The position numbers and the translations under genes were made by a program. A stretch of 64,000 nucleotides of DNA from Deltaproteobacteria bacterium (GTDB lineage: Bacteria > Myxococcota_A > Polyangia > Polyangiales > JADJMO01), in NCBI GenBank assembly GCA_025363655.1, contig JANYDK010000071.1:124001-188000 (forward strand). Reading direction: 5' to 3'. The notes under the pieces are model-generated. The model worked only from the letters and a program-made list of their open reading frames with translations, was not told the origin of the DNA and did no database searches. This document shows positions 31,557 to 37,247 of this stretch, piece by piece; within the stretch, counting starts at the first letter, position 1; each line of letters begins with the position of its first letter.

Positions 31557-32699
31557 TCAGTACGGCGTCGCCTTCGTGAAGTCGGTGGCGATTCGCCCGA
31601 CCGCACGCGTGACGGCGCTGGCGTTGTCGGTGATGGCGCCGACCTCGCGATTGTAGTCGAGCGATTGCTTCGTCAGGTTGATCGAGCCGACGTAGAGCCG
31701 CGCGCCATCGGCGACGATGATCTTCGCGTGCACGTCGGGCGAAGCGAGCGTTCGCACTTGCACGCCCTTCGCCTTGAGCGTGCCGAGCGCGGTGGCGGTC
31801 GAGGCGTCGGGCGTCCCGGGAGCGATCACGCGCACGACGACCCCACGACCGGCCGCGGTTTGCAGATGCGTGACGATGGTCGCGTCGTAGACCTCTTCCA
31901 TCTCGAGATCGAGCGTGCTCTTGGCGCCGTCGATGAGCGACGTCAGCGCGTTGCGCGAGTTGATCGGCGAGACCACGAGGTTGCCGGAGAGCGTCGGCTT
32001 CACGACCGCGGCGACGTCGGCGGCGAAGATCGCCTCGGCCTCGGCGACATCTCCGGGATCGGTGTCGACGAGGCCATATTCGCGGTTGAAGGCGATGCCC
32101 GAGGACGTGAAATTGAGCGTGAGGATGAACGCGCGCGCGCCGTCGACGATCATCAACTTGCTGTGCGTGAGCGGGTAGAGCGACGACGTCCACGACACCT
32201 TCACCCCGGCGGCTTGGAGCGTGTCGTGCGCCGGCTGGTTGGCCGTCGTCATCGCATAGGGGCTCTTCTCGAGGAGCACCGACACCTCACGCCCGGCTTT
32301 CTTCGAGGCGATCAGGGCATCGATCACCATGTTGTCGGTCAGCAGATAGACCTCGACGTGCACCGACTTGGTCGCGGCTTTGATCGCGTCGGTGATCACC
32401 GTCTTCCCGTCGTCGGGGATGATGATCAGCGAGACGGCAGCGGTCGTCTTCGGCGGCGCGGTGTCGACGCCTGACGTGTCGGCGGGGACGGGCGCAGCGT
32501 CGGGGCTCGGCGCGGTGTCGCCGTGCACGGCGTCGAACCCGCCACCGTCTACCGCCGAATCGAGCTCGCTCCCGGCGTCGTCGGGCTCGATCACGGCCCC
32601 GTCGTCGCCGCTCGGATCACCGCCGCCCCCCGTCGAACCGCACGCGGTGAGGAGCGCGAGTGCACAAGTCGAGACGGCAGCGAAGACGGGGAGGCGCAT
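31557..32699 (-). CDS. Lipoprotein with two phospholipase D-type active-site motifs
   Basis: A 380-aa protein from ATG 32699, with a lipoprotein signal (STCALALLTACGS) and a Gly/Asp-rich spacer of about 70 aa. The mature domain is a PLD-like dimer fold with two HxK motifs: THSKLMIVDGARAFILTLNFT near residue 180 and VHAKIIVADGARLYVGSINLT near 323. Each is followed by the usual N/S and E residues (NREYG, NREVG). This matches the PLDc_2 family (phospholipase, nuclease or cardiolipin-synthase-like). As a surface lipoprotein a hydrolase acting outside the cell is plausible; substrate is unknown. Confidence 0.88.
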   Translation of the reverse strand: MRLPVFAAVSTCALALLTACGSTGGGGDPSGDDGAVIEPDDAGSELDSAVDGGGFDAVHGDTAPSPDAAPVPADTSGVDTAPPKTTAAVSLIIIPDDGKTVITDAIKAATKSVHVEVYLLTDNMVIDALIASKKAGREVSVLLEKSPYAMTTANQPAHDTLQAAGVKVSWTSSLYPLTHSKLMIVDGARAFILTLNFTSSGIAFNREYGLVDTDPGDVAEAEAIFAADVAAVVKPTLSGNLVVSPINSRNALTSLIDGAKSTLDLEMEEVYDATIVTHLQTAAGRGVVVRVIAPGTPDASTATALGTLKAKGVQVRTLASPDVHAKIIVADGARLYVGSINLTKQSLDYNREVGAITDNASAVTRAVGRIATDFTKATPY

Positions 32700-32805: not shown

Positions 32806-33585
32806 TCAGCTGCAAGCACCGGCGTCGAGCCAACCACGCAAGCCGGCGCTCTCGATGCCGACCGCGTCGAGGCCAGGGACGATCAGCGCGCGCACCGACT
32901 CGACGACCGCCTCGTCGATCGCTTTTGGATCGAGCGCGCCATGCTCACTGAGGCGTGCGCTCGGGCGTGGAGGCGAGGGCTTGCGCCAGGTTCGGACGTG
33001 CGCGCGCACCATCGGCACCAGGAAAGGCTCGATCGCTCTCTTGGCCTCGGGCGTCAGCGACACGAGAAATGCCCAGCCGATGCGCGCGTGATCGACGTCG
33101 TCGCTGAGCAGCTCACGAAGCGCTCCACGGACGAGGGGCCCACGCGCGCTCGCGAGACAGGCTTCGAGGTACGCGGTGGCGGTGGTCTCGTTGATCGCGC
33201 ACTGACCGATGACGTGGAGCGCCGGACGAAGCCGCGCCGGTGCCTCGGCGTGGGCCGGGGCCTCCAGCGAAAGGCGCTTCGGCGCCTCCAGCGCATGACC
33301 CGCGTAACGCTCGGCGACGAGGCGACAAATCTCGGCGTGTCGCAGCTCGTCGTCGATGGCGCGTGTCCCGAGGCTGCGCAGCACAGGATCGGCGTCGACG
33401 CTGGCGAGCGCCGATTCGATGACTTGGAACGCGTCCGATGCCCGTCGCTCGGCGGCCGCACGACCGAGCCACTCGACGACGCATGCCGCGCGCTCTTCTT
33501 TCGTCAGCGCGTCGATCGTCTCGTCGACGTCGGCGAGCGGACGACTCGTCAGCCGTCCTGCCCAACGGCCGGAAATATCGGTCAT
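32806..33585 (-). CDS. Ferritin-like-fold protein
   Basis: A 259-aa, mostly helical protein from ATG 33585 (MTDISGRW). Two E/D-x2-H-type motifs, AIDDELRHAEICRL near 90 and LLSDDVDHARIGWAFL near 155-170, have the spacing of a four-helix ferritin-like diiron fold, with a further acidic residue in INETTATAYLEA. The family is often annotated only as ferritin-like domain-containing protein, and oxidase activity is not established. Its ATG overlaps the stop of the upstream lipoprotein gene (ATGA, 33582-33585), so the two are translationally coupled. Confidence 0.75.
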   Translation of the reverse strand: MTDISGRWAGRLTSRPLADVDETIDALTKEERAACVVEWLGRAAAERRASDAFQVIESALASVDADPVLRSLGTRAIDDELRHAEICRLVAERYAGHALEAPKRLSLEAPAHAEAPARLRPALHVIGQCAINETTATAYLEACLASARGPLVRGALRELLSDDVDHARIGWAFLVSLTPEAKRAIEPFLVPMVRAHVRTWRKPSPPRPSARLSEHGALDPKAIDEAVVESVRALIVPGLDAVGIESAGLRGWLDAGACS

Positions 33586-34007
33586 CCGCGCGTGTCGGCG
33601 GGCGGTGGAAGAATGCCGGGCCACGTGTCGTCGTCGTGAGCGTCGCTCGCGTCGCGACCATCACCGGGAGCATCGGGCTTCGACGTGTCGGCGGCGATGG
33701 TCGGCCACGTATCGACCCCGATGTCGGCGGGACGAATGCCGCCCCACGTGTCGCGAACGCCGGTGTCGGCAGGACGAATGCCGCCCCACGAATCGTACGT
33801 GGTCGTGTCCGTCCGAATCCCGTCCCAAGTGTCGACCGGAGCGGTGTCGGCGGCGATGTGCGGAAACGAATCGCTCTTGGCGTCCTCACACGCGGCGTCT
33901 TGGCAGGCTTGCTCGGCGTCGACGGTTCCACCGCACGAGACCGTGAGCAGCGAGACGCCGACGCTGACCCCCACGAGGACGACGGTGTGAAAGAGGCGAG
34001 TGCTCAT
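33582..34007 (-). CDS. Small lipoprotein with DTWGGIRPAD-type short repeats
   Basis: A 141-aa protein from ATG 34007. The signal peptide ends VSLLTVSCGG, a lipobox. The mature part is almost entirely a spaced repeat of D-T/S-W-x-G/T-I: DTWDGIRTD, DSWGGIRPAD, DTWGGIRPAD, DTWPTIAAD and DTWPGILPPPAD, each 10-20 residues apart and embedded in Asp/Ala/Thr-rich sequence. At DNA level the central copies are near-identical (about 33730-33800). No known family is recognised. It is coupled by an ATGA overlap to the ferritin-like gene, which suggests a shared function. Confidence 0.7.
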   Translation of the reverse strand: MSTRLFHTVVLVGVSVGVSLLTVSCGGTVDAEQACQDAACEDAKSDSFPHIAADTAPVDTWDGIRTDTTTYDSWGGIRPADTGVRDTWGGIRPADIGVDTWPTIAADTSKPDAPGDGRDASDAHDDDTWPGILPPPADTRG

Positions 34008-35103: not shown

Positions 35104-35907
35104 GTGAACAAGACGGCGCTGTTCGTCTCCCTCATCGTCGCGGTCCTGGGCGGCTTCTTGCTGTTCGCCTATTTGCGCCGCTTCGAGTTCGAATCGTCGG
35201 GCGGCGCGCCGGTGCGGGTGATCGTGGCGAAGAAGCAGCTCGATCCGGGCGTGGTCCTCACCGAAGAGCTCCTCGCGACGCAAATCGTCCCCCAGGCCTA
35301 CGTCGAGTCGCGCGCCGTCCGCGAGTCGGAGAAGGCGAAGATCCTCGGCCTTCGCGTCAGCACGCCGGTGCAGGCCCAGCAGAGCCTGATGTGGACCGAC
35401 CTCGCGATCGCCGCCGACGATCAGCGCTACCTCAGTCAGCTGGTGCAGCCGGGCATGCGCGCGGTGAGCGTGCGTGCGCAGTACGACGACAAGAGCTTCG
35501 CCCTCATGCGCCCGGGCGATCGCGTCGACGTCGTCGCCACCTTTCCGCAGCAAGCCGGGCAAGATCAACGCACGTCGATCGTGCTTCTGCAGAACGTGCT
35601 CGTCCTCGCCGTCGGCCTCGACACCGGCGCTGAAGGAGCGGGGCCGCGTCCGCCCGGCGATCAGCGCGACCTCCTCCTCAGCGTCAGCGTCAACATCCAA
35701 GAAGCGCAGCTCCTCGCGCTCGCCGGGGAGAAGGGTCGCCTCTCGGTGGCGCTGCGCAACCCCGACGACGTGCGCATCACCGACGGTCTCGTCGACTTGA
35801 TGTCGAGCACGCTGACCGATTCGAAAGCACGCAAGGTCGTCCAAGATCTGCGCAAGACCCCGACGGGTCCGGTGAAACTTCCGTCCGCCACCGGAGCTCC
35901 CCAATGA
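35104..35907 (+). CDS. cpaB: Tad pilus assembly protein CpaB/RcpC
   Basis: A 267-aa protein from GTG 35104. One N-terminal membrane helix (LFVSLIVAVLGGFLLFAYL) is followed by a SAF-like domain (VRVIVAKKQLDPGVVLTEELL, about 37-58) and the RcpC/CpaB domain with GMRAVSVRAQ, MRPGDRVDVVATF and LLQNVLVLAVG. CpaB/RcpC is a periplasmic partner of the secretin channel, possibly binding peptidoglycan. Its stop overlaps the ATG of the secretin gene (ATGA, 35904-35907). This begins Tad block 3. Confidence 0.93.
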   Translation: MNKTALFVSLIVAVLGGFLLFAYLRRFEFESSGGAPVRVIVAKKQLDPGVVLTEELLATQIVPQAYVESRAVRESEKAKILGLRVSTPVQAQQSLMWTDLAIAADDQRYLSQLVQPGMRAVSVRAQYDDKSFALMRPGDRVDVVATFPQQAGQDQRTSIVLLQNVLVLAVGLDTGAEGAGPRPPGDQRDLLLSVSVNIQEAQLLALAGEKGRLSVALRNPDDVRITDGLVDLMSSTLTDSKARKVVQDLRKTPTGPVKLPSATGAPQ

Positions 35908-37247
35908 GACTGCGCCAGGCTTGTTTTCTCGCTTCGTTCGTCCTCTCGGCGAGCTCGCTCTCAGCACCTGCCTTCGCGCAGAAAGCGCCGAAGGACAAGG
36001 ACGCGAAGGACAAAGACAAGGATAAGGATAAGGACAAAGAGAAAGACAAGCTGGACGGCACGCCGCTCAAGGCCAACGACCTCGCGCTCTCGGTCGGCGA
36101 GAACAAGACCATCTCCGCCGTCGACGTGAAGAACTACTCCGAGGGCACGCCCGGCATCGTCGACATCAAGCTCACCACCGACGCCACCCAGTTCGTCGTC
36201 GTCGGGCTCAAGCCGGGCACCACCTCGCTCCTGCTCATCAAGAAGAGCGGGCAAGAGATCAACTACATCATCAGCGTGTTTTCCCGGTCACCGGCGCTGG
36301 TCGAGAGCGAGGTCACCGAGCTCATCACCAACTTCCCGGGCGTGAAAATCAAGCGCGTCGGCGGCCGCATCTTCCTCGACGGCACCGTCGGCAACGAGGT
36401 CGACCTCAAGCGCGTCAATCAAATCGCCGCGCTCTATCCGGGCCAAGTCGAGTCGCTCGTCACCATCGGCACGCGCGAACGAAGCACCAACATCCGCATC
36501 GACTTCTTCTTCGTCCAATACGACAAGAACTCGAGCTACCAAATCGGCGTCGACTACCCGACGAAAATTGGCGGTCCCTTCGTCACCAGCAACCTCGGCT
36601 ACGACTTCGTCGCCAAGACGACGACCGCGCAAGCCAACGTGGTGAATCAGCCGCTCCCCGGGCTCGACATCGCGTCGCACTACGGCTGGGCCAAGGTCAT
36701 CAAGCAGGCCACCGTCATCACCGCCAACGGCACCGACGCGCTCTTCGAGAACGGCGGCGAACAGAACTTCCCCGTCGCCAGCGGCCTCACCGGCACCATC
36801 CAGAAAATCAGCTTCGGCACGCAAATCGTCGTGCAGCCGCTCTACGATCCGACTTCGAAAGAGCTCGAGCTGAAGATCAGCGCCGACGTCAGCGACCTCG
36901 TCCCAGGCATCAAATCGACGCCGCTGCCCGGTCGACAAACCGCCAAGCTCAACACCATCGTCCACATGAAGGTCGGTCAGTCGCTCATTCTCTCGGGCAT
37001 CCACGCCTCGAGCGAATCGAAGACCATCGACGGCCTCCCGCTCCTCTCGCGCATCCCCATCCTCGGTCCGCTCTTCGGCAGCTGGGGCGCGACCGAGACC
37101 GAGCTCGAATCGGCCATTTTCATCGTCCCGAGCGTGGTCCAAGAGCCGAAGGGCACCGCCGCCAGCATGGTCAGCGATGCCCTCGCGGAGTATGAAAAGT
37201 TCACCGGCGAAGTGCCCTCGACGTACGACAAGTCGGTGGGGAAGTAG
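35904..37247 (+). CDS. cpaC: Tad pilus secretin CpaC/RcpA
   Basis: A 447-aa outer-membrane secretin. The signal peptide ends APAFAQ (about 26), followed by an unusual Lys-Asp tract (about residues 30-49). The N-terminal pilus/BON-like part has LALSVGENKTISAVDVKNYS, VVVGLKPGTTSLLLI and INYIISV, typical of CpaC. The secretin domain (about 190-420) has TNIRIDFFFVQYDKN, FENGGEQNFPVAS, GTQIVVQPLYDP, LNTIVHMKVGQSLILSGI and PLLSRIPILGPLFGS, the canonical secretin signature. It forms the outer-membrane pore for the Flp pilus. The next gene is convergent, so block 3 ends here. Confidence 0.95.
   Translation: MRLRQACFLASFVLSASSLSAPAFAQKAPKDKDAKDKDKDKDKDKEKDKLDGTPLKANDLALSVGENKTISAVDVKNYSEGTPGIVDIKLTTDATQFVVVGLKPGTTSLLLIKKSGQEINYIISVFSRSPALVESEVTELITNFPGVKIKRVGGRIFLDGTVGNEVDLKRVNQIAALYPGQVESLVTIGTRERSTNIRIDFFFVQYDKNSSYQIGVDYPTKIGGPFVTSNLGYDFVAKTTTAQANVVNQPLPGLDIASHYGWAKVIKQATVITANGTDALFENGGEQNFPVASGLTGTIQKISFGTQIVVQPLYDPTSKELELKISADVSDLVPGIKSTPLPGRQTAKLNTIVHMKVGQSLILSGIHASSESKTIDGLPLLSRIPILGPLFGSWGATETELESAIFIVPSVVQEPKGTAASMVSDALAEYEKFTGEVPSTYDKSVGK
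35991..36050 (+). repeat. AAGGAC-type hexanucleotide tract encoding a Lys-Asp run in the secretin
   Basis: Alternating AAG/AAA and GAC/GAT/GAG codons run through this stretch, giving K-D-K-D repeats with one Ala and one Glu interruption. Synonymous variation between units (GAC versus GAT, AAG versus AAA) argues that it is maintained as protein sequence rather than being a fresh slippage expansion. Confidence 0.85.

Follow-up and report, generated by a model that had tools for sequence, protein, structure and literature searches.

The window, a 64,000-nucleotide stretch of a Deltaproteobacteria contig, carries on its minus strand a pair of overlapping genes. The upstream gene (33582–34007, open reading frame and translation, ATG start, TGA end) encodes a protein of 141 amino acids, which we propose to be a multi-unit substrate, and the downstream gene (32806–33585, minus strand) encodes a ferritin-like di-iron protein of 259 amino acids, which we propose to be the modifying enzyme. 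The third-position GC of the upstream gene is 0.78, the same as in the neighbouring ferritin-like gene, and hence it looks coding. Its translation opens with a signal peptide, MSTRLFHTVVLVGVSVGVSLLTVS (33936–34007, minus strand), of the conserved [RK]LFHx[IV]V type described by the profile of partner lipoproteins (see below), followed by a VSC motif after the hydrophobic stretch, in which Cys25 (33933–33935, minus strand) is the predicted lipidation site. With a Sec signal and a lipobox cysteine, the product is a putative bacterial lipoprotein as judged by motif. The sequence-only reading of this DNA had the stop codon of the lipoprotein overlapping the start of the ferritin-like gene, and an ATGA at 33582–33585 (minus strand) indeed joins the TGA of the one to the ATG of the other; this overlap suggests that the two genes are translationally coupled.

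The mature part of the lipoprotein is a 116-residue acidic tail, in which short units are separated by linkers rich in D, A, T and P. In the order of translation these are DSFPHI (33855–33872), DTWDGI (33816–33833), DSWGGI (33777–33794), DTWGGI (33735–33752), DTWPTI (33696–33713) and DTWPGI (33612–33629), all on the minus strand, the last one being followed by LPPP. The five copies of D-[TS]-W-x-x-I that had been noticed earlier are thus exactly five in number, DSFPHI being a sixth related unit, and the pattern occurred at most twice in any of 20,000 shuffles that kept the composition of the mature lipoprotein. Cysteine occurs in the mature protein only near the N-terminus (CQDAACEDA), and the repeats have none. 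A single-sequence structure prediction gives one signal helix and leaves the remainder disordered, with no further predicted fold. The earlier impression that no family with this repeat is known is supported in that Pfam and NCBIfam give no match above the curated cut-off, either for the lipoprotein or for the ferritin-like protein. As to the surroundings, a lipoprotein-like protein with phospholipase D domains (31557–32699, minus strand; PLDc_2, 4.4e-44) is encoded just downstream, with no relation to the pair seen, and the plus strand at 35104–37244 has genes for RcpC/CpaB and secretin, components of a Flp pilus.

The ferritin-like protein displays a complete di-iron ligand set of the form E, ExxH, E, D/ExxH on a four-helix bundle, as defines the superfamily. 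The AlphaFold2 model (pLDDT 95.8) places the ligands on four successive long helices, and their conservation was counted in all 121 deduplicated relatives, placed on a 64-row alignment. E46 (33448–33450, minus strand; helix 29–62) is E in 119 of the 121, with two gaps. In the E80xxH83 pair (33337–33348, minus strand; helix 67–95) both residues are kept in 119 of 121, the exceptions being two gaps for the glutamate and one valine and one gap for the histidine. E133 (33187–33189, minus strand; helix 117–146) is E throughout (121/121), and D163xxH166 (33088–33099, minus strand; helix 150–176) has E or D at the first and H at the second position in every relative (121/121 each), most of them carrying E163. 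Within the 64-row alignment itself, the invariant columns include E46, E80, H83, E133, D162 and H166, and E163 is nearly invariant, the protein of the window having D163.

A search with Foldseek returned no match at E ≤ 0.001 for this model, so that the likeness to di-iron oxygenases described here is a statement on fold, not a proof of kinship. Re-examination of Foldseek's list with VIA-align gives Z scores of 15.6–18.1 for the 50 best entries, at 8–20% sequence identity. On top are SSO1313 (Z 18.1), aldehyde-deformylating oxygenase (17.7), methane monooxygenase hydroxylase (17.7), PaaA (17.3) and VlmB (17.1), and the nearest solved structures among the 50 entries listed are di-iron oxygenases, oxidases and ribonucleotide reductase subunits. 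A cage-forming storage ferritin or bacterioferritin is not among these 50, which as a re-ranking of Foldseek's list is no exclusion. Single family members match Pfam AurF (1.1e-6) and Rubrerythrin (1.3e-5), and also DUF455 and MiaE_2. The known ferritin-like di-iron oxygenases (aldehyde-deformylating oxygenase, PaaA/PaaC, the hydroxylase of sMMO, VlmB, AurF) share the four-helix di-metal bundle with E/ExxH/E/ExxH ligands; what sets the protein of the window apart is the low identity of 8–20% and its lack of a match to any Pfam family. The substrates of the known members are, to our knowledge, small molecules or acyl groups. Judged by its model, the protein thus resembles O2-activating di-iron enzymes; it has no signal peptide. 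The earlier label "ferritin-like" is right as far as the helical bundle with its full ligand set is concerned, but has to be understood here as a di-iron enzyme fold.

By protein search, 63 of 96 relatives have a homologue of the enzyme; within the order, homologues occur in 97 of 183 genomes (E ≤ 1e-10), and a profile search detected them in 86 of 188 genomes sampled across the phylum. A pattern-and-confirm scan of a species-genome collection yielded 177 stretches that encode enzyme relatives, and the titles of the best 80 of these 177 name myxobacterial, "Deltaproteobacteria" or "Proteobacteria" assemblies. Adjacency of the two genes in further genomes had been set beforehand as a check. The 121 deduplicated ferritin-like proteins were binned by bit score, and a profile of the signal peptide was applied to the directly upstream gene. 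A signal-bearing lipoprotein was found there for 30 of the 31 enzymes with at least 300 bits, the sole miss having just 442 bases of upstream sequence, for 33 of 41 between 200 and 300 bits, for 21 of 24 between 145 and 200 bits, and for one of 25 below 145 bits. The pair is hence conserved, and a lack of such conservation, which would have refuted the sequence-only reading, is not what is seen. Among the misses, L189/L128 and L198 have a lipoprotein directly downstream and L089 has one on the opposite strand, and six Myxococcus/Pyxidicoccus-type members (L115, L116, L118, L121, L122, L125) keep the ligands with no such lipoprotein next door; their partner may be encoded elsewhere or lost. Two tandem lipoproteins precede a single enzyme in 4 of the 121, with the same tail type and different linkers. 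Upstream at L022/L104, the second tandem precursor is devoid of the lipobox cysteine and keeps the LFSAIVV start and the ILPYIR end. In the flanks of 80 loci, as read with a crude ORF caller, no third conserved gene was found, and no conserved protease, transporter or reductase; larger apparent clusters of flanking genes were discarded as ORFs antisense to the enzyme gene, as the lipoprotein itself, or as families without a fixed position. Paired sets of this kind are numerous in myxobacteria, and the pair of the window is one of them.

The partner lipoproteins share a signal peptide of unusually high conservation, [RK]LFHxIVVxGAxL...C, which is followed by a disordered linker with no common sequence and then by a short motif, usually at the C-terminus; beyond the signal, they have no fold in common. 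In the 51 rows of the signal profile, among which is the lipoprotein of the window, the L, F, V and G positions are nearly invariant. A clade comprising L127, L130, L131, L135, L136 and L139 displays IW[KR]xVV in place of LFH, GRGF[IV]LS tails, and a longer gap to the enzyme of 92–635 bases. As a query for genome searches, the lipoprotein itself was of hardly any use, owing to its low-complexity linker (best non-self E 0.002), yet several of the weak matches are the N-termini of true partners by ferritin-like genes (G001:C31, G075:C341, G083:C6). A DNA pattern for the signal was too unspecific (31 matches in the organism's own genome vs. 17 for a reversed-pattern control) and was replaced by the protein profile. 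In 56 whole genomes this profile gives 32 matches at E ≤ 0.001, the lipoprotein of the window, itself a profile row, being matched with E 6.2e-5 in a whole-genome search. Comparison by hand shows that 30 of the 32 adjoin a ferritin-like gene, one of these being the outer of two tandem lipoproteins, while one lies at a contig edge and one is alone. Conversely, all enzyme matches with at least 200 bits in the same 56 genomes have a lipoprotein partner (24/24). The 51 profile rows had been picked for adjacency to ferritin-like genes, so the count of adjacent signals partly repeats its own making; among the 15 of the 32 strong matches that are not profile rows (matched by hand), 13 are adjacent to a ferritin-like gene. 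This type of signal is almost confined to the neighbours of this one family of ferritin-like enzymes.

The motifs at the other end of the lipoproteins are of many types, including WxTTK, FPHITK, MVLIL, PPCxLIK, GRGFILS, WLSWV and GW. Classes drawn by eye in 87 pairs comprise WxTTK-like (31), VxIL (8), CCW (8), PPCxI[KR] (6), GRGF[IV]LS (6), [WF]xGI (4; its row L082, EWGSILVK, could be classed elsewhere), CxPCIL (4), GW (4), PHIT[KQ] (3), LSWV (2), ITR (2), WVHGIK (1) and other tails (8). The short tails are rich in W, F, I, L and V and the linker is poor in them: in seven short-tail classes, bulky hydrophobic residues make up 21–75% of the last six positions vs. 5–19% of the rest. Some classes are rich in cysteine (CCW, CxPCIL, and an extension after WxTTK), and VxIL, GRGFILS and WLSWV have neither cysteine nor histidine in the tail. 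Motifs in a non-terminal position are found as internal repeats and where WxTTK is followed by the Cys-rich extension. The partner lipoprotein of L074 has a long collagen-like GATGATG linker ahead of its GWPPTK tail.

The tail class follows the branch of the enzyme. On an enzyme tree of 79 rows (the 87 pairs minus one too short and seven "other"), the 12 tail classes require 11 changes, the least possible, compared to a mean of 46.1 and a minimum of 42 in 200 label shuffles; the tree was made by a quick method and leaves 36 of 83 forks open, which makes the number of changes a lower bound. This is stable co-inheritance, as expected of any stably linked gene, and does not by itself prove contact of the two proteins.

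Against this background, the repeat of the window may be understood. A relative from the same family of genomes (L032/L087) ends in DTFPGIMPPPIDGG and has a single unit, TFPGIMPPP, comparable to the sixth unit with its LPPP; L090 has three units (AWHGIIDAGWPTIADAPWGI), and the lipoprotein of the window has six, of which DSFPHI recalls the SFPHITK and SFPHITQ tails of L097 and L103. The lower numbers of units in relatives and the likeness of DSFPHI to such tails point to the DTW repeat as a lineage-specific multiplication of the short motif of the family. The conservation of the repeat, which was another point of the sequence-only reading, is hence not borne out as far as the number of copies is concerned; what is conserved is one short motif. 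Several pairs with different tails may occur side by side: the genome of the window has a second pair (L182, GCPPDSEIPTPPCSFIR), and genome G001, in which the enzyme family reaches its highest number of profile matches (14), has pairs ending in TFPGIMPPP.., GWHPTK, WVHGIK and CFPCIK.

Among the distant ferritin-like paralogues (below 145 bits), 24 of 25 have no upstream lipoprotein of this signal type. Nine of the 25 are preceded by a protein that looks exported and has a motif like C..WGPP at its C-terminus, for example GCIPWGPPAPPAF; out of 17,038 ORFs of the same loci, counted with duplicates, 26 have this motif. The nine (L157, L124, L161, L162, L164, L165, L166, L169 and L185, the last one in the genome of the window itself) have Asp-rich partners that end in C..WGPPxPP. 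The C..WGPP pairs may belong to the system as a second branch.

The closest parallel among described systems are the DAG-RiPPs, hybrids of RiPPs and lipoproteins that are made by MNIO enzymes and also occur in Myxococcota; the MNIO DybH has as its target a motif of seven residues at the C-terminus, which it recognizes even when attached to GFP, and lipoproteins arise from its precursors (PMC12636315). DAG-RiPPs share with the pairs described here a small lipoprotein precursor, an adjacent gene for a non-haem iron enzyme, a short conserved C-terminal motif and a variable N-terminal part, whereas their enzyme is an MNIO (a TIM barrel, PF05114) and not a ferritin-like helical bundle, and their motif is CPxCGxG, in contrast to several Cys-free classes here (PMC12636315). 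The word "ferritin" is absent from the main text of that paper. A precursor with lipoprotein signal and short conserved motif, as DAG-RiPPs have, is also what the signal profile, the lipobox and the motif classes indicate here, lipidation being predicted. An involvement of an MNIO was considered and rejected: PF05114 has four matches in the genome of the window, none of them on the contigs of its two signal-type pairs (C116 and C63), where the neighbour is the ferritin-like gene. Bufferins are MNIO-modified RiPPs with a Sec signal, about 16% of Buf2 being predicted lipoproteins (PMC12452194). They resemble our proposal in that a Sec-signal precursor is modified by an iron enzyme, but are defined by Cys motifs and an MNIO, and the pair of the window has neither these Cys motifs nor an MNIO (PMC12452194). 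A review of heme-oxygenase-like enzymes sets the ferritin-like di-iron oxygenases apart as a separate class (PMC13108848). Full-text searches of an open-access library found no description of such pairs of lipoprotein and ferritin-like gene. By analogy, the system would work like a RiPP-lipoprotein hybrid without being a member of the MNIO type.

A cytosolic oxidative enzyme next to an overlapping, unfolded, exported precursor with a kept or multiplied motif is the anatomy of a RiPP. We hypothesize, and consider it reasonably probable, that the two genes form a RiPP-like system in which a cytosolic di-iron enzyme oxidizes the motif of a lipoprotein precursor before export, the precursor of the window being multi-core. 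The lipoprotein would be the precursor, whose conserved signal peptide would route it to the lipoprotein pathway and may double as a leader; the disordered linker would serve as tether and the short motif as substrate site. The downstream gene would supply a cytosolic ferritin-like di-iron oxygenase or oxidase, coupled to translation of the precursor, which would act on the motif ahead of Sec export and lipidation, so that a modified peptide would finally be shown at the membrane on a lipid anchor. Related genomes have several pairs of this kind, which differ from one another in motif type, and in the window the number of units would have risen to six, so that the precursor is multi-core. Multi-core precursors are known among RiPPs, for instance the microviridin-type graspetides, where several repeats of a short core are found in one precursor; by comparison, the pair of the window has no ATP-grasp enzyme, and its relatives are mostly single-unit. 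A gene-encoded precursor beside a dedicated enzyme, as RiPPs require, is found here in the adjacency and the specificity of the pair, and the tailoring is what we infer the enzyme to do. Candidate reactions may be hydroxylation, desaturation or C-terminal oxidation. The tail classes are chemically diverse (WxTTK vs. MVLIL), so that one reaction does not explain all of them, which counts against modification of the motif; MVLIL tails, without aromatic residue, cysteine or lysine, argue in particular against a single side-chain chemistry for all. Also to be set against the reading are the six Myxococcus/Pyxidicoccus-type members and the 24 of 25 distant ones that have no such lipoprotein, the eight of 87 pairs that fall outside the classes drawn by eye, the low identity of the fold matches, and flanks in which crude ORF calling showed no conserved protease, transporter or reductase.

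This diversity of tail chemistry among classes may also speak for a pair in which the ferritin-like protein docks onto the tail as a recruitment motif, or retains the precursor as a chaperone, and carries out its chemistry on a lipid or small molecule. Docking likewise uses short linear motifs at the C-terminus, and the nearest folds include enzymes for fatty aldehydes and aromatic CoA esters. On the other hand, lasting docking would have to cross compartments, given an enzyme devoid of an export signal and a lipoprotein predicted to be exported, and a unit multiplied to six is at least as well explained by a multi-core substrate. We regard such a docking or chaperone pair as unlikely.

Less probable still, and to be given little weight, is that the motif acts as a sorting, anchoring or display signal and that the ferritin-like protein is merely co-inherited and co-regulated with it, for example in oxidative stress. 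In most classes the tail is at the very end of the protein, a frequent position of sorting signals, and neither adjacency nor co-inheritance is by itself a sign of interaction; against this stand the near-limitation of the signal type to the neighbours of one enzyme family and the motifs that are not terminal, namely the internal repeats and WxTTK with its Cys-rich extension.

Handling of metal or ligand, the function proposed in the sequence-only reading, by an acidic surface lipoprotein that binds metal and a ferritin that stores it appears the most improbable, in spite of the Asp-rich repeats, of several Cys-rich tail classes and of copper binding by MNIO-made bufferins with signal peptides (PMC12452194), since the enzyme has no signal peptide and an O2-activating-like fold, the structural matches listed are oxygenases, oxidases and ribonucleotide reductase subunits, several tail classes have neither cysteine nor histidine, the Asp-rich linkers vary freely, and the lipoproteins have no constant set of metal-binding residues. 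Enzyme and substrate is the better reading.

Extending the enzyme-and-substrate reading to the whole family, we see about even chances that these pairs represent a large, undescribed RiPP-like class of Myxococcota, in which ferritin-like di-iron oxygenases act on the tails of lipoproteins in many enzyme-motif pairs, probably including the C..WGPPxPP branch. The lipoprotein of the window would then be the first multi-core precursor of this class, and the ferritin-like bundle a second iron-enzyme fold that acts on lipoproteins, beside the MNIOs. If true, this would mean a new enzyme fold for the post-translational modification of peptides, would give a function to a family unnamed in Pfam and NCBIfam, and would offer compact two-gene sets of enzyme and substrate for biochemistry. 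It would also suggest that peptides with chemical modifications are presented by myxobacteria on lipid anchors, with a possible bearing on the surface, metal or social biology of these bacteria.
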